44,497 bases of DNA from an uncultured Myxococcales bacterium (GTDB taxonomy: Bacteria; Myxococcota_A; UBA9042; DTJE01), in assembly GCA_903847405.1 (NCBI GenBank), contig CAINDP010000021.1, positions 1-44,497 of the forward strand, written 5' to 3'. The notes beneath the pieces were generated by a model that saw only the letters and a program-made list of their open reading frames with translations, was not told the DNA's origin and did no database searches. This document shows positions 19,010 to 25,100 of the stretch, piece after piece. Every line of letters starts with the position of its first letter. Position 1 is the stretch's first letter. The position numbers were made by a program, and so were the translations under genes.

Positions 19010-19051
19010 CACCTTCCGGCCTTCGGCACGACCGCCGAATCGAACGCGCAG

Positions 19052-19079
19052 ATCGTACTCCGGGGGCCCGGGCTGTCAA
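19052..19079 (-). promoter_or_regulatory. sigma70-type promoter of the small lipoprotein
   Basis: Minus strand: perfect -35 TTGACA (19079-19074), a 16-base spacer, -10 TACGAT (19057-19052), 42 bases upstream of the ATG at 19009. Confidence 0.6.
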
Positions 19080-19120
19080 CCGAGGGGCCGGGCGGGAAGG
19101 CGTCCCGGGAGGAGGGGTCA

Positions 19121-19149
19121 TTGAACAGGGTCCCTTCGGGCGATAGTAT
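19121..19149 (+). promoter_or_regulatory. sigma70-type promoter of the Cys-repeat lipoprotein
   Basis: -35 TTGAAC (19121-19126), a 17-base spacer, -10 TAGTAT (19144-19149). The leader contains a 6-bp hairpin CGGGGC-TCAG-GCCCCG (19157-19172), followed by the GGAGG site at 19184-19188. Confidence 0.65.
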
Positions 19150-19194
19150 CCCGGTGCGGGGCTCAGGCCCCGAACGTCGCCCCGGAGGCACTGC

Positions 19195-21627
19195 ATGGAT
19201 TCCCGCCTGACGTCGATCGTCCTTCCGTGCCTGCTGGCATTCGCCTTCCTGGCCTGCGGGGGCGGCGGCGCCGGCCCGGCCGACGTGGCGGAGGATGCCG
19301 CTGCCGAACTCCCGGGCGACATCGGCGCCGACGCTCCGGCCGACGGGACGGGGGAGGAAGGACGGGACGCGCTGCCGGCCGACCTGCCCGATGCCGACGG
19401 TTCCAGGGACGCGCAGGACGCGGACGTCGCCCCCGAGGTCCCCTGCGAGTGCACGACCAACGACGACTGCACGGGCAGCTTCCGGGGGCTGGGCGCCTGC
19501 GAGCGGGCGGTGTGCGACCCCGGTTCCTGCGCCTGCGTCCGCCAGAACGCCCCGGAAGACGTGGTCTGCGACGACGGAAACCCCTGCACGACCGGCGACC
19601 GGTGCGCGGGGGGCGCCTGCGTCGGGGGGACCAACGACTGCAGTTGCCAGGCGGACCAGGACTGCCTGCCCAGGGAGGACGGCAACCCCTGCAACGGCAC
19701 ACTGATCTGCAACAAGACCGTGTCGCCCTACACCTGCACGGTCGCCCCCGAAACGGTCGTCCTGTGCACCGACGACGACCCGGTCCCCTGCACCCAGAAG
19801 CAGTGCAACCCGGCGACCGGGCAGTGCGAGCCTGTGGCCGTGGACGAGGGCCTGGGCTGCACCGATCTGGATCCCTGCACCACGGGGGACACCTGCACGG
19901 GCGGGGTCTGCACGCCGGGCGGCACGATGACCTGCAACGACAACGAACCGTGTACCGGCGAAACCTGCGTCCCCGGGGAGGGCTGTGTCTACCGCCCGAT
20001 GGAGGGGGAATGCGATGACGGCAACCCCTGCACCCTGGCCGACGCCTGCTTCGAGGGGCGGTGCAAGCCCGGCGCGCTGGACCCATGCGACGACGGCAAC
20101 GCCTGCACCCTGGATTCCTGCGTCACCGGGGTCGGCTGCCGCAACGTCAACCGGGACGACGCCCCGTGCACCGACGGCGACGCCTGCACGGTGGGCGACT
20201 GGTGCGACGGTTCCGTCTGCACCGCCGGGGACCCCGCGGTCATCGACGACGACAATCCCTGCACCACCGATTCCTGCCTGCCCGTCGGCGGCGTGCGCCA
20301 CGTGGCGAACCAGGATCCGTGCGACGACGGCGATCCCTGCACCATCGGCGACCGGTGCGCGGACGACGCCTGCCAGGCCGGCGGCCCGGCGGACTGCGAC
20401 GACGACGACGCATGCACCGGGGATTCGTGCGCGCCGTTGACCGGGCTGTGCGTGTACGTCCCGGTGGACGTCGATGACGGGGACCCGTGCACGGTGGACG
20501 CCTGCATTCCGCCGACCGGGAACATCGTCCACACGCCGAAGGGGTGCTCCGACGGGAACACGTGCAACGGCCTGGAAGCCTGCGATCCGCTGACGGGCGC
20601 CTGCGTCCCGGGAACCCCCCTCGCCTGCGATGACGGCAACGCCTGCAACGGGCCCGAGGCCTGCAACGCGGCGGCCGGGTGCCAACCAGGTACCCCGCCC
20701 GCCTGCAATGACGGCGACCGGTGCAACGGCATCGAATCGTGCGACCCGACCTCGGGCGCCTGCGTCCCCGGCGAGGCACTGGTGTGCGACGACGCCGATC
20801 CCTGCAACGGCCAGGAGGCCTGCGACGCCACGGCAGGGTGCGTCCCGGGGACCCCGCCGGCATGCGACGACGGGCTGGCCTGCAACGGGGTGGAGAGCTG
20901 TCATGCGTTCGTCGGGTGCGTCGCCGGAACCCCCCGGACGTGCAGCGACAACAACGTTTGCACGACGGACAGGTGCACGGACCCCGTCGGGGACTGCACG
21001 AACCTGCCGGCCCCCACCCTTCCGTGCGACGACCTGAACGCCTGCACCGGCAGCGACACCTGCAGTCTCGTCGGGTCCTGCATCGGCGGCACCGAAACCT
21101 GCTGCACCGACGGCAACGACAACGACGGCGACGGCCTGACCGACTGCCGGGACCCGGATTGCGCGTCGAATCCGAACTGCGCGGTCGCGGTCACCTGGTG
21201 CCGGCTGCAGTACCCTGCCACCATCCTGTCCCTCGAAGCCGTGCCCACGACCGTCTATGGCCGGGTCTACATCGCCGGCCTCACCTCGTTGACGACCCGG
21301 ACCGACCCGTACCCGGCGCTGAAGGCGCAGGCGGGCTACGGCCCGAACGGCTCCGACCCGACCGCGGCCGGCTGGACGTGGTTCGACGCCGCGCCGAACA
21401 CGGCGTACGACGGCAATGATTTCGCCGAACCCAACAACGACGAGTACATGGCGGCGCTGCCGGCACCGGCGTCCGGCGGCTCCCCGTACGACTTCGCCTA
21501 CCGCTTTTCGGGTGACAACGGGACGACCTGGACGATGTGCGACCTGAACGCAGGCGACGGCAAGGACGGATCCCAGGACGGCTACCAGGCGTCCAGCGCC
21601 GGCGACCTGGTCGTCACCGCGCCCTGA
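19195..21627 (+). CDS. Large Cys-repeat surface lipoprotein
   Basis: 810 residues. A signal peptide with lipobox AFLAC leads into an acidic Ala/Asp/Pro stalk of about 65 residues. From about residue 85 to 635 the protein is built of some 17 Cys-rich units such as CDDGNPCTTGDRC, CDDGNACTLDSC and CDDGLACNGVESC, each about 25-35 residues. A DGNDNDGDGLTDC motif, typical of Myxococcota surface proteins and likely calcium-binding, follows. The last 150 residues form a beta-rich domain (TVYGRVYIAGLT, YDFAYRFSGDNG) that resembles carbohydrate-binding or Ig-like modules seen on secreted enzymes. It is probably an outer-surface, disulfide-rigid stalk that presents the C-terminal domain; the ligand is unknown. 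Its stop lies 8 bases from that of the convergent collagen-like gene. Confidence 0.85.
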   Translation: MDSRLTSIVLPCLLAFAFLACGGGGAGPADVAEDAAAELPGDIGADAPADGTGEEGRDALPADLPDADGSRDAQDADVAPEVPCECTTNDDCTGSFRGLGACERAVCDPGSCACVRQNAPEDVVCDDGNPCTTGDRCAGGACVGGTNDCSCQADQDCLPREDGNPCNGTLICNKTVSPYTCTVAPETVVLCTDDDPVPCTQKQCNPATGQCEPVAVDEGLGCTDLDPCTTGDTCTGGVCTPGGTMTCNDNEPCTGETCVPGEGCVYRPMEGECDDGNPCTLADACFEGRCKPGALDPCDDGNACTLDSCVTGVGCRNVNRDDAPCTDGDACTVGDWCDGSVCTAGDPAVIDDDNPCTTDSCLPVGGVRHVANQDPCDDGDPCTIGDRCADDACQAGGPADCDDDDACTGDSCAPLTGLCVYVPVDVDDGDPCTVDACIPPTGNIVHTPKGCSDGNTCNGLEACDPLTGACVPGTPLACDDGNACNGPEACNAAAGCQPGTPPACNDGDRCNGIESCDPTSGACVPGEALVCDDADPCNGQEACDATAGCVPGTPPACDDGLACNGVESCHAFVGCVAGTPRTCSDNNVCTTDRCTDPVGDCTNLPAPTLPCDDLNACTGSDTCSLVGSCIGGTETCCTDGNDNDGDGLTDCRDPDCASNPNCAVAVTWCRLQYPATILSLEAVPTTVYGRVYIAGLTSLTTRTDPYPALKAQAGYGPNGSDPTAAGWTWFDAAPNTAYDGNDFAEPNNDEYMAALPAPASGGSPYDFAYRFSGDNGTTWTMCDLNAGDGKDGSQDGYQASSAGDLVVTAP

Positions 21628-21635
21628 ACCCGGCC

Positions 21636-23843
21636 CTACGGGCAGGCGACCGCGTCGTCCACGAACTGGAAGTTCTTCAGATCCAGCGACATGGAGGTCC
21701 CCAGGCCGCACCCGCCGTGGCTGAACTGCATCTGCGTCGCGCTCCCCTGGGCGGATGCCGGCACGCACAGGGTGACGGCCTGCCAGGGCGCGCCCGACGT
21801 CCCGGCCCAGTAGAGGTCGCCGAGGTAGAGCTGCGGCGCCCAGCCCGTGGAGCGGTACGTGAACTTGAGGGTGGGATGGGCCATCGTGGCCTCCAGAGGC
21901 ACCGAGATCCAGTTCACCAGGGTGCCCGAGGTGCACACGCTGCTGCTGTCGTTGTACAGGTGGACGTACCGGGTGCCCGCATCGGTCAGGTAGGTGACCG
22001 AGGACTGGGGGCCGGTGCCGGTGGTGGTCCAGCCGAAGTTCCCCTGCAGGTCGCTGTTCAGCACGGTGCCGATGACCGGGCAGGTCTGCGCGTCCACCAC
22101 CTCCAGGACCGCGTTGTCGAATTCGAAGGCGCCGACGCCGTTCTGGACGGTGCCGCCCGGGTACGGGGACACCGCCGCAAGGGAGAACTCCACGGAATCG
22201 CCGTAGGCGGCCTCGCCCAGGCACGACGAGAACGTCTGCCAGTAGTCGGAGCCGTGGACCCAGCCACTCAGGATGGGTGTGGTCCCGACGACCAGGGCCG
22301 GGCTTCCCGGCTGTTCCATCTCGCACATCCAGGGGTCCTCGCCGCTGCAGCGCAGGACCACGTCGAAACTGGCGCGCAGGCTGAGGGTCCGCGGGTTGGC
22401 AAACACGGTCTGCGACAGCCTCGCCGTCGAAAGCGTGGCCGCCGGGAGCGTGCCGGACCCGGCGTTGCCGTGGCCCGTTGCGGCCGGGGACACCGAGGCC
22501 CCTCCGGTGGCGGTCCAGGCGGTCGAGGTCTGGAAGATGCCGTCCCGGAACTCCGGGAACATGTTCGCGGAGTCGATGGTGAACGAACCGACGGCCAGGC
22601 CGCAGCCGTCGGACACGGTGATCGCGAGGACGAAGGGGCCCCCGGCCATGCGGGGCGTCAAGGTGAACCGGCCCGCAAGAGCCCCGGGTTCGATGACGAA
22701 TCCCATGCCGGAAAGGACGATGGCGAGCGGGTCGCCGTCGACGTCCGAGGCGTTGACCGTGACGGTGAACGGCGTGTCCATCGACACCGCCGTCGGGGCA
22801 TCGACCAGGCCGATGACCGGGTTGTGGTTGTCGGCGCACGGGCTGTCCTTGCCGTCCGCGCCGGGGGCGCCGTTGCAGGCGTATGTGGCGATTCCGGTGC
22901 CGACCCGGGCCTTGACGCCTCCATACGTGCAGTTGTCGCCGGGAGGCTCCGTCGAGATCACGGCGCTCTCCCCGTCCTTCCCGTCCGTGCCGTCCTGGCC
23001 GTCGGTTCCGTCCTGGCCGTCAACCCCGTCCTGGCCGTTGACCCCGCTGCACACGTAGGTCGGCTGGCCCTCCCCGACCTGGACCATCACGCCGCCGTTC
23101 GTGCAGGTCGTACCCGCCGGCTCGGTGGCAACCCGGACGCTCAGGCCATCGCTTCCGTCGGTCCCGTCCTGGCCGTCGATCCCGTCCTGGCCGTCCTGGC
23201 CGTCGGCGCCGTTGGCACCGTTGCACACGTAGACCGCCGGATCGTTCCCGACCGCGATCCTCGCGCCTCCCTGCGGGCAGACGTCGCCGGACGGCTCGGC
23301 CACGACGGTCGCATTCTGCCCATCCTGTCCGGCGGCCCCGCTGCACAGGTAGGTCGGGGCACCCTCGCCGGCCTGGACCCTCACGCCGCCGTCAACGCAG
23401 TTCTCGCCGGGAGCCTCGGCGGTCACCACGGCGGACGCACCGGGAGCCCCGGCCTCGCCTGCCGTCCCGTTGGTCCCGTCGGTCCCGTTCGCACCCACCG
23501 CACCATCCAGGCCCGCAGCACCGCTGCAGACATAGGACTGGACCTTCGCGCCGTCCCCGACCCAGGTCTCGACCAGGACGCCACCGTCCGCGCAGTGCTC
23601 GCCCGCCGGCTCCGGCATCGTCTCCACGTGGGCCTCGGCAGGAACCGCACCGTCCTGCCCGTTGCACACGTAGGCAGCGGTCGCCGCGGAACCCGCGACC
23701 TCGATCTTCTGTCCACCCGCGGCACAGTGGTCGCCCGCGGCCTCGGGCGTGACCAGCACGGACAGGCCCTGCAGCGTCTCCTCGCAGGCCCCCGCCGCCA
23801 GCACCAGGACCGCCCCCGCACAAGCAACGAATCTCGCGCGCAT
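21636..23843 (-). CDS. Collagen-like, disulfide-module lipoprotein (DUF7151-like)
   Basis: 735 residues from the ATG at 23843, which has GGAGG upstream. The lipobox is LAAGAC (C20). Residues of about 25-350 hold six copies of a 35-45-residue unit of the form EPAG-x2-C-x2-GGV-x-V-x(8-14)-YVC-x-G-x2-GxDG; the first and last cysteine of each unit would pair. Between them are collagen-like Gly-X-Y tracts rich in GQDG and GTDG. The unit resembles DUF7151, known mainly from Myxococcota. An Ig-like domain follows (NPVIGLVDAPTAVSM, VTVNASDVDGDPLAI). The C-terminal 350 residues are two beta-sandwich-like parts with paired cysteines. It is probably a long surface fibre. Function is unknown. Confidence 0.82.
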   Translation of the reverse strand: MRARFVACAGAVLVLAAGACEETLQGLSVLVTPEAAGDHCAAGGQKIEVAGSAATAAYVCNGQDGAVPAEAHVETMPEPAGEHCADGGVLVETWVGDGAKVQSYVCSGAAGLDGAVGANGTDGTNGTAGEAGAPGASAVVTAEAPGENCVDGGVRVQAGEGAPTYLCSGAAGQDGQNATVVAEPSGDVCPQGGARIAVGNDPAVYVCNGANGADGQDGQDGIDGQDGTDGSDGLSVRVATEPAGTTCTNGGVMVQVGEGQPTYVCSGVNGQDGVDGQDGTDGQDGTDGKDGESAVISTEPPGDNCTYGGVKARVGTGIATYACNGAPGADGKDSPCADNHNPVIGLVDAPTAVSMDTPFTVTVNASDVDGDPLAIVLSGMGFVIEPGALAGRFTLTPRMAGGPFVLAITVSDGCGLAVGSFTIDSANMFPEFRDGIFQTSTAWTATGGASVSPAATGHGNAGSGTLPAATLSTARLSQTVFANPRTLSLRASFDVVLRCSGEDPWMCEMEQPGSPALVVGTTPILSGWVHGSDYWQTFSSCLGEAAYGDSVEFSLAAVSPYPGGTVQNGVGAFEFDNAVLEVVDAQTCPVIGTVLNSDLQGNFGWTTTGTGPQSSVTYLTDAGTRYVHLYNDSSSVCTSGTLVNWISVPLEATMAHPTLKFTYRSTGWAPQLYLGDLYWAGTSGAPWQAVTLCVPASAQGSATQMQFSHGGCGLGTSMSLDLKNFQFVDDAVACP

Positions 23844-24037
23844 CTTCTCCTCCCTGCACCGCTCGACTTTCGACACCATCGCCCCAAGGGTGGAGAAGCA
23901 ACAACGGTGCCAACCGGTGTGCGGCAAAACCCAGAGGCTGGAGATGCGCAAGTACCTGATATTAGAACGTCATATGACTCGCTCCAGCCGGCGACTCCGG
24001 GAGACGAACGAACGATGGGAATGGATTCCCGGAGCCG

Positions 24038-24073
24038 GAACCCGCACAACCTTGCGACCACCAAAACCTGAAT
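24038..24073 (-). pseudogene. Partial tRNA-Leu copy (anticodon loop to T arm)
   Basis: Bases 24038-24073 align without gaps to 25034-25069 of the intact tRNA-Leu, 31 of 36 identical, in the same orientation, exactly 996 bases apart. The matched part runs from the anticodon loop through the variable arm into the T loop. The 5' half of a tRNA is missing, so this is not a functional gene. It looks like an attachment-site copy. Confidence 0.7.
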
Positions 24074-24097
24074 TCCGCATCGGCCTTTTTTTCATTT

Positions 24098-24131
24098 AGG
24101 CATCACCGGTTTCGGCGCTGGTGAGATGCCT
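24098..24131. repeat. Inverted repeat beside the partial tRNA-Leu copy
   Basis: AGGCATC-ACC (24098-24107) pairs with GGT-GA-GATGCCT (24120-24131), with a 2-base bulge. A T7 run precedes it at 24086-24092. It may be a terminator relic or a recombinase arm site; the 23844-24192 interval has no other recognisable feature apart from the tRNA fragment and the 15-base repeat at 24140. Confidence 0.4.
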
Positions 24132-24192
24132 GTATGGCCACGGAATTCCTGGGTTCAACGATGTTCCAGCACCCTTTCCTGACGACCTTCCC

Positions 24193-24236
24193 TTGACCAG
24201 GTCATCATCGGTTTATAGAATTGACATTGGATTCTA
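24193..24236 (+). promoter_or_regulatory. vapBC promoter with overlapping operator-like inverted repeat
   Basis: -35 TTGACC (24193-24198), a 17-base spacer, -10 TAGAAT (24216-24221). The -10 is also the left arm of a perfect inverted repeat, TAGAAT (24216-24221) and ATTCTA (24231-24236). This fits the autorepression by VapB-VapC complexes that is usual for the family. Confidence 0.65.
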
Positions 24237-24251
24237 GAACGGAGAGCCGCG

Positions 24252-24506
24252 ATGCCCTTGAGCATCAAGCATGACGAGGCCGACCGATTGGCCCGTGACC
24301 TTGCCCGCCTGACCGGCGAGTCCTTGACCGAGGCCGTGCTCAACGCGCTCCGCGAGCGACTGCACCGCCAGCGTGCCCAGGGCCGCAAGGGTCGTCTTCG
24401 CGACGACCTGCTGGACATCGGCCGCCGGTGCGCCGCCCTGCCGGTGAAGGACAACCGCCCCATGGACGAGATCCTGGGCTACGACGAGCATGGCCTTCCT
24501 TCCTGA
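24252..24506 (+). CDS. vapB: VapB-family antitoxin (Rv0623-like)
   Basis: 84 residues. The N-terminal part ([27 protein letters not shown]) is the ribbon-helix-helix DNA-binding domain of the Rv0623-type antitoxins. The C-terminal tail ([17 protein letters not shown]) is the usual toxin-wrapping segment, in which the GYDxxGLP motif is conserved. The ATG at 24252 is preceded by GGAGA. It is followed by vapC after 11 bases, giving a standard co-transcribed TA pair. It probably binds the inverted repeat over its own -10. Confidence 0.92.
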
Positions 24507-24517
24507 CGAGGTGTCCC

Positions 24518-24913
24518 GTGGTCATCGAGACGTCCGCAGTGCTGGCGATCCTGCAAGCCGAACCGGAGGCCGCGGCCTTCGCGGAGGCCATCGAGCGGGA
24601 TCCCGTCCGGCTCGTGTCTGCTGCATCCGTTTTGGAGGCGTCCATCGTAATCGTGGCACGTCATGGGGACGCAGGGGCGAGGGAACTGGACCTCTTCCTC
24701 CTCAAGGCCCAGGCCGATATCGTCCCGGTCACCGCGGAGCATGCAGCCCTGGGGCGTGATGCATACGTCCGGTTCGGCAAGGGTCGCCATCCGGCCGGGT
24801 TGAACTTCGGAGACTGCTTCGCCTACGCCCTTGCGCGGGCGTCCGGCGAACCCCTGTTGTTCAAGGGTGAGGACTTCAGCCGAACGGACGTGGCCACGGT
24901 CGAACGGGTCTGA
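24518..24913 (+). CDS. vapC: VapC-family PIN-domain ribonuclease toxin
   Basis: 131 residues from the GTG at 24518, with GAGG upstream. PIN-domain toxins cut specific RNAs, often tRNA or rRNA, with a cluster of acidic residues and Mg. Visible: VIETSAVLAIL (E4 in the place of the usual first Asp), SVLEASIVI (E40), LNFGDCFAYALA (D99) and LLFKGEDF (D119 nearby). The sequence closely follows the Rv0624 type, including GKGRHPAGLNFGD. Asp to Glu at the first position is a conservative change, so activity cannot be excluded. The gene ends about 40 bases before a bidirectional terminator. Confidence 0.92.
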   Translation: MVIETSAVLAILQAEPEAAAFAEAIERDPVRLVSAASVLEASIVIVARHGDAGARELDLFLLKAQADIVPVTAEHAALGRDAYVRFGKGRHPAGLNFGDCFAYALARASGEPLLFKGEDFSRTDVATVERV

Positions 24914-24926
24914 GAACGACAAATAT

Positions 24927-24950
24927 CCTTGGTACAAACCTTGGTACAAA
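24927..24950. repeat. Tandem 12-base repeat after vapC
   Basis: CCTTGGTACAAA occurs twice in direct tandem (24927-24938 and 24939-24950), directly before an A6 run and the terminator. It sits on the element side of the tRNA-Leu 3' end, so it could be a recombinase-binding repeat. Confidence 0.5.
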
Positions 24951-24951
24951 C

Positions 24952-24983
24952 AAAAAACCCCGGACCTTTCGGCCGGGGCTTTT
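24952..24983. terminator. Bidirectional intrinsic terminator of vapBC and tRNA-Leu
   Basis: CCCCGG (from 24958) and CCGGGG (24973-24978) form a stable stem. On the plus strand it is followed by CTTTTCG; on the minus strand by GTTTTTTG. It can end both vapBC and the opposing tRNA-Leu transcript. Confidence 0.75.
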
Positions 24984-25013
24984 CGTGAAACCGGAACGAT
25001 TTCAAAAACTCTT

Positions 25014-25100
25014 TGGTGCGAAAGGGGGGACTTGAACCCCCACAGCCTTGCGACTACTAGAACCTGAATCTAGCGCGTCTGCCAATTCCGCCACTTTCGC
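25014..25100 (-). tRNA. tRNA-Leu (anticodon CAG) with encoded CCA
   Basis: The tRNA body is 25017-25100 (84 bases) plus an encoded CCA at 25016-25014. Acceptor GCGAAAG pairs with CTTTCGC; the anticodon stem CTAGA/TCTAG encloses TTCAGGT (anticodon CAG); there is a long class II variable arm around GTCGCAAGGC, and a T arm with GGTTCAAGTCC. The other two tRNAs in the window lack an encoded CCA, so this one differs. Confidence 0.96.

Follow-up and report, generated by a model that had tools for sequence, protein, structure and literature searches.

A predicted myxobacterial lipoprotein in which two-cysteine DUF7151 modules alternate with collagen-like Gly-X-Y tracts

Collagen-like proteins of bacteria usually carry one or two long Gly-X-Y tracts. 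The stretch of DNA analysed here (the window, 44,497 nucleotides from an uncultured Myxococcales bacterium) encodes a protein in which such tracts are short and separated by small two-cysteine modules, and which an earlier note had described as a collagen-like lipoprotein forming a segmented surface fibre. The locus raises the question of whether such tracts are better read as collagen or as flexible spacers, and of how the length of the chain changes.

Layout of the 735-residue protein

The gene is a minus-strand ORF at 21636-23843 which starts at the ATG at 23843, downstream of a Shine-Dalgarno-like GGGAGGAG, and encodes 735 amino acids. The protein begins with a lipoprotein-type signal, MRARFVACAGAVLVLAAGAC, whose lipobox AAGA/C ends at Cys20; the assignment comes from a sequence match and from the same feature in homologues. 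It therefore has the signal peptide, lipobox and cysteine by which bacterial lipoproteins are defined, and its lipidation is predicted. The signal is followed by six two-cysteine modules with Gly-X-Y tracts, an Ig-like domain and a Cys-rich C-terminal half. The mature chain contains 22 cysteines besides Cys20, an even number. Both the lipoprotein assignment and the segmented architecture proposed in the earlier note are thus upheld. The features are distributed as follows:

21636-23843, minus strand: gene of the 735-residue lipoprotein (DUF7151 modules, Gly-X-Y tracts, Ig-like domain, Cys-rich C-terminal half)
23784-23843, minus strand: lipoprotein signal peptide and putatively lipidated Cys20 (AAGA/C), from the sequence and recurring in homologues
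23658-23765, minus strand: module 1 (Cys40-Cys60, 19 residues between)
23643-23660, minus strand: Gly-X-Y tract 1 (2 triplets; first Gly shared with module 1)
23520-23633, minus strand: module 2 (Cys84-Cys106, 21 residues between)
23433-23522, minus strand: Gly-X-Y tract 2 (10 triplets)
23337-23438, minus strand: module 3 (Cys149/167, 17 residues between)
23313-23339, minus strand: Gly-X-Y tract 3 (3 triplets)
23217-23318, minus strand: module 4 (Cys189/207, 17 residues between)
23139-23219, minus strand: Gly-X-Y tract 4 (9 triplets, 7 of them with Asp at Y)
23043-23144, minus strand: module 5 (Cys247/265, 17 residues between)
22965-23045, minus strand: Gly-X-Y tract 5 (9 triplets, 7 of them with Asp at Y)
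22869-22970, minus strand: module 6 (Cys305/323, 17 residues between)
22845-22871, minus strand: Gly-X-Y tract 6 (3 triplets)
22981-23299, minus strand: 174-bp direct repeat (1.8 copies, 74% matches), a module and tract unit, modules 4 and 5
22593-22829, minus strand: Ig/cadherin-like domain (Big_9 at 21.6 bits, cut-off 23.6)
21639-22592, minus strand: Cys-rich C-terminal half, uncharacterised, conserved in the own-genome paralogue C12 and in the near relative G001

The triplets directly following the modules number 2, 10, 3, 9, 9 and 3. When the protein was shuffled 2000 times, no shuffle produced more than one module, against six observed, and successive Gly-X-Y triplets reached at most 8 (mean 3.2), against 10 observed; shuffling thus excludes chance as the source of the pattern. 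The motif PAG...GGV...YVC put forward for the modules is valid as a consensus and not literally, PAG being found in two of the six modules and GGV and YVC in four each.

The whole protein matches Pfam DUF7151 (PF23657) with 89.3 bits over six stretches (cut-off 27.2, E=1.6e-25), so that the comparison with this profile suggested in the earlier note came out positive. No single module of the window reaches the cut-off over the full 46 positions of the profile, the best scoring 22.8 bits over positions 4-25. Pfam Collagen (PF01391) is matched with 37.7 bits (cut-off 27.2), and the uninterrupted Gly-X-Y repetition on which this family is based is present, with a longest run of 10 triplets. Two other candidates were rejected: an NCBIfam SclB match (32 bits against 325), which is compositional, and RTX-type calcium repeats, for which GGxGxD nonapeptides are absent.

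The Ig/cadherin-like domain covers residues 339-417 and its Big_9 score lies slightly below the Pfam cut-off. Together with the C-terminal half it matches paralogue C12 and the G001 protein at 42-47%. A profile search of the C-terminal head against the PDB gave no relative, and single-sequence AF2 modelling of the C-terminal 401 residues gave a pLDDT of 31, so no fold is claimed for the head.

Two forms of the DUF7151 module and the phase of the tracts

DUF7151 is already catalogued as a domain family but uncharacterised; our literature search found no paper naming it, and the closest named records with such modules are myxobacterial metagenome bins. A search of 237 genomes sampled from the phylum found it in 62; the 14 control genomes had none. 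In the genomes of the phylum it is often accompanied by Gly-X-Y tracts and, as the pairing with Collagen is common there, the architecture of the window protein is not unique. The suggestion that a segmented collagen is unusual did not survive either: many of the 44 DUF7151 proteins of the phylum are segmented, and so are long collagens of Pseudoalteromonas, by CBM_5_12-type modules.

Module forms were surveyed in 44 non-redundant DUF7151 proteins. By the spacing of their cysteines the modules fall into two groups: 67 have 16-21 intervening residues, most often 17, and 90 have 28-36, most often 30, a single outlier having 13. The proportions of short and long modules depend on the way in which loci were retrieved and do not reflect natural frequencies; what matters is the gap in the distribution. 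Short and canonical modules align by hhalign with a probability of 98.7 (E 2.8e-16) and one exact gap of 13 residues, which is also seen in alignment A1. Between their cysteines the canonical modules carry the motif D-x-[NDS]-x-[DNS]-G-x-L-xxx-E (100/100/100/83/100/98%). This loop scores 35.4 bits against EF-hand_1 (cut-off 25.4), and the EF-hand-type pattern is found in 55 of 66 canonical 30-gap modules versus 0 of 43 short ones. Judged from these alignments, DUF7151 modules comprise two homologous forms, one with the EF-hand-type loop and one without it; the latter, lacking a calcium-binding-type loop, is apparently undescribed so far. The six modules of the window, all of the short form (modules 1 and 2 being slightly longer, with 19 and 21 residues), would then be a DUF7151 variant set apart from canonical members. 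They share with the canonical module (46 positions) the two cysteines, the C-x2-GG and Y-x-C-N-G ends, the repetition and the Gly-X-Y sequence that follows, but all six lack the 13-residue EF-hand-type loop between the cysteines.

Short modules are not confined to one family: the class to which the window belongs has them in several, and they also occur in other classes of the phylum (genomes G058, G067, G075, G083 and G169). Both forms are mixed within some proteins (L071, L122). Wherever an anchor can be detected in a short-form protein, it is that of an N-terminal lipoprotein, and the first module cysteine lies 18-25 residues after the lipid cysteine. The family also occurs in other settings. 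A protein of 1165 residues in G002:C71 (L048:4355-7852) has nine DUF7151 stretches, mostly of the 36-residue-gap form (DDGLPSGTAGNGVLEVGE loop), with GTN/GTD tracts of up to 18 triplets between modules and a C-terminal sorting-type tail. Subtilisin-like proteases with a PA-like region carry two or five canonical modules (L051 in G000:C174, L053 in G002:C8) and end in a MYXO-CTERM-like tail, a hydrophobic stretch followed by RRRR; one of them contains a GTN-rich Gly-X-Y tract.

Measured from the second cysteine of a module to the first of the next, the distance is a multiple of three before 31 of 42 short modules (p 1e-7), and before 34 of 42 long ones it leaves a remainder of 2 on division by three (p 3e-10), both p values assuming independence of sequences that are in fact related. 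From the final triplet to the next cysteine there are mostly 11 residues (short) or 13 (long), and the phase deviates in about a quarter of the short-module cases. As phase and offset are both non-random, the tracts are precisely framed by modules on both sides; the strong maintenance of the Gly-X-Y phase between modules favours a structure of period three over a loose linker. In the relatives L015, L025 and L071 the same modules flank Pro-rich tracts of classical collagen type. Phase and Pro-rich relatives together provide the strongest argument for reading the window's Asp-rich tracts as collagen-type and not as a loose spacer. The loop-less module form and the strict phasing constitute the new content of this analysis. 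With a two-cysteine bead in fixed Gly-X-Y phase, in forms with and without a loop, an anonymous domain becomes a testable structural hypothesis.

Length variation and genomic setting

The best full-length homologue pair, G000:C12 (in the window's own genome) and G001:C61, is 64% identical over 697 amino acids. Both proteins resemble that of the window in being lipoproteins with short modules, an Ig-like domain and the same C-terminal half, but they have three modules and not six. Their tracts differ 2.5-fold, C12 having long GTN/GTD tracts of 15 and 20 triplets against 6 and 8 in G001. As module number is fixed in this pair while the tracts differ, length has changed by tract and not by module. 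The two genes have no shared flanking genes in the stretch compared and are therefore called homologues, orthology being unproven.

The idea that length changes by gain or loss of modules is thus right in part: paralogues differ in module number and duplications of modules are seen, yet both members of the C12/C61 pair have three. Duplication is documented by the 174-bp repeat spanning modules 4 and 5 of the window and by modules 3 and 4 of another own-genome paralogue, C93, which are 94% identical. In this short-form paralogue (L050:7527-8342) the contig stops within a fifth module, after four or more complete ones; such repeats probably cause breaks in assemblies. The only counterpart of the window gene's own modules 1 and 2 is a remnant in G002, which has lost its start codon and, through a deletion of about 1.65 kb reaching from module 3 to near the end, has its frame shifted. 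Its tract 2 has 9 triplets versus 10 in the window.

The gene converges, at a distance of 8 bases, with an ORF at 19195-21627 (plus strand) that is Cys-rich and lipoprotein-like with Dicty_CTDC repeats, in agreement with the large surface lipoprotein that had been proposed as its convergent neighbour. A VapBC-like antitoxin/PIN pair lies in the same interval, which is delimited as follows:

19013-25014: interval between tRNA-Leu and a small lipoprotein/rpsB
25014-25100: tRNA-Leu

Synteny with G001 and other genomes was compared by blastp and tblastn. The block around the interval is otherwise syntenic in the near relative G001, where the interval contains neither surface gene nor the toxin-antitoxin pair and is occupied instead by another large ORF, a segment of which is lipoprotein-like (L089:9025-11709). 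In the stretches compared from G002 and G009, rpsB is present and the collagen-like gene and its neighbours are absent. The tRNA-Leu/rpsB interval appears to be a site at which surface proteins vary, as fast turnover would lead one to expect. The module region gave no tblastn match to plasmids and phages, and plasmid megablast matches are short and fall at tRNA-Leu only. In G001:C61 a relative of the convergent Dicty_CTDC lipoprotein (L046:15507-16235) lies about 4.6 kb from the collagen-like homologue; although the loci are not syntenic, a functional link is possible, as is coincidence.

A collagen-type stalk, its rivals and known systems

The 36 triplets of the window have no Pro at X, Pro at Y in 2 and Asp at Y in 20 (56%). 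The usual triple-helix composition, Pro-rich at X with basic residues, Gln or Thr at Y, is thus not that of these tracts. Asp at Y is destabilising according to host-guest values. The collagen groups listed in Table 4 of PMC3368898 have 22-48% Pro at X and 0.1-7.8% Asp plus Glu at Y, and as the composition found here is unusual for collagen, the triple helix is one that we only infer. A tract of only 2-3 triplets is unable to form a helix on its own, and a trimeric helix of this composition would be intrinsically weak. Low Pro alone is not fatal, since Scl2.28, low in Pro and rich in Lys and Asp, melts at 35.6 C (PMC8968730). An AF2 model of module 5, its tract and module 6, built as a monomer from ten aligned rows, folds each module as a three-stranded beta unit (pLDDT about 80) and leaves the tract unstructured (pLDDT below 50); such predicted disorder would be expected equally if the chain belonged to a trimer and if the tract were a flexible linker. 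The module region has no solved relative in the PDB, and a Foldseek search of the PDB with the modelled module pair returned only chance chemokine-like matches (E above 2). A trimeric fibre is therefore plausible but unproven.

We favour, with a probability of about 0.58, a lipid-anchored, trimeric beaded stalk with short collagen-type helices that presents a head. Signal, modules, phase, homology and variation are read from the sequences themselves. Cys20, going by its sequence signal, would be lipidated and anchor the chain in the membrane; the next 310 residues or so would form the stalk, six small beta modules stabilised by disulfides within each module and alternating with tracts held in a fixed three-residue phase to their neighbours. 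Three chains would associate, the tracts would wind into short triple helices, and the modules would act as caps, keeping the three chains aligned and making up for tracts whose shortness and low proline content would leave them unstable alone. The stalk would present the Ig-like domain and the Cys-rich C-terminal head outwards from the surface. Its length would be set mostly by tract length, through changes of 9-bp units, and more slowly by duplication of module and tract units.

Another arrangement, which we regard as unlikely though still credible, is that of monomeric beads on a string, in which disulfide modules are joined by disordered hydrophilic Gly/Asp/Gln/Thr linkers into a flexible extended spacer without triple helix. 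The proline-poor, Asp-rich composition, the disordered tract of the AF2 monomer and the freedom of tract length (1 to 58 triplets among relatives) all suit it; however, a loose linker has no reason to keep a three-residue phase, which with its offset is strongly non-random in both module classes, and homologous modules flank clear Pro-rich collagen tracts. The phase could also be a by-product of growth by slippage, through tandem duplication of 9-bp units (GGN-NNN-NNN) with no structural selection on period or module number. Tandem arrays of 9, 18, 27 and 36 bp do occur in the tracts of the window and of C12, close homologues differ in tract length, and the G002 copy has decayed. This explanation is nevertheless improbable, as duplication alone would not preserve Gly against substitution: Gly is kept at every third position while X and Y vary, and, whatever the family or class, most offsets to the following module are 11 or 13. 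Gly-rich polyproline-II bundles are known from the snow flea antifreeze protein, and the Gly-X-X period with cysteines at segment ends would fit a bundle in which the tracts of one chain pack together, held by disulfides. Such a bundle needs similar, fixed segment lengths, whereas those of the window are uneven and vary freely among relatives, and the modules are separate beta units in the AF2 model; we consider it highly improbable.

A bolder version of the trimeric stalk, tentative and rather doubtful, would make the short DUF7151 module an autonomous trimeric cap that renders proline-poor, Asp-rich Gly-X-Y segments, by themselves too short to fold, triple-helical, its disulfide replacing the calcium ion of the canonical form. 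If true, there would be matched calcium-dependent and calcium-independent versions of one collagen-capping bead. More generally, if the beads do cap collagen segments, nature would here provide a compact trimerisation module for proline-poor collagens, which bears on how bacteria obtain stable collagen in the absence of hydroxyproline.

Among known systems, the mosaic adhesive trimers of Bdellovibrio (PMC10769870) are likewise stalked modular surface fibres with variable tips. The comparison concerns how they work only: they are intertwined trimeric beta-prisms, they gave no sequence match to P0001, and the word collagen is absent from that paper. Streptococcal Scl1/Scl2 and the E. coli prophage protein EPcl (PMC8968730, PMC3368898) similarly have a Gly-X-Y region beside non-collagen domains, which in EPcl include dedicated trimerisation modules; unlike the window protein, they usually have one or two long tracts without beading by Cys modules, more Pro at X and more charged residues. 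In the long collagen-like proteins of Pseudoalteromonas (L041, L043), several Gly-X-Y tracts are also split by repeated small modules. These modules are of CBM_5_12 type and have no Cys pairs, and the tracts are much longer; these proteins represent an independent beaded collagen architecture.
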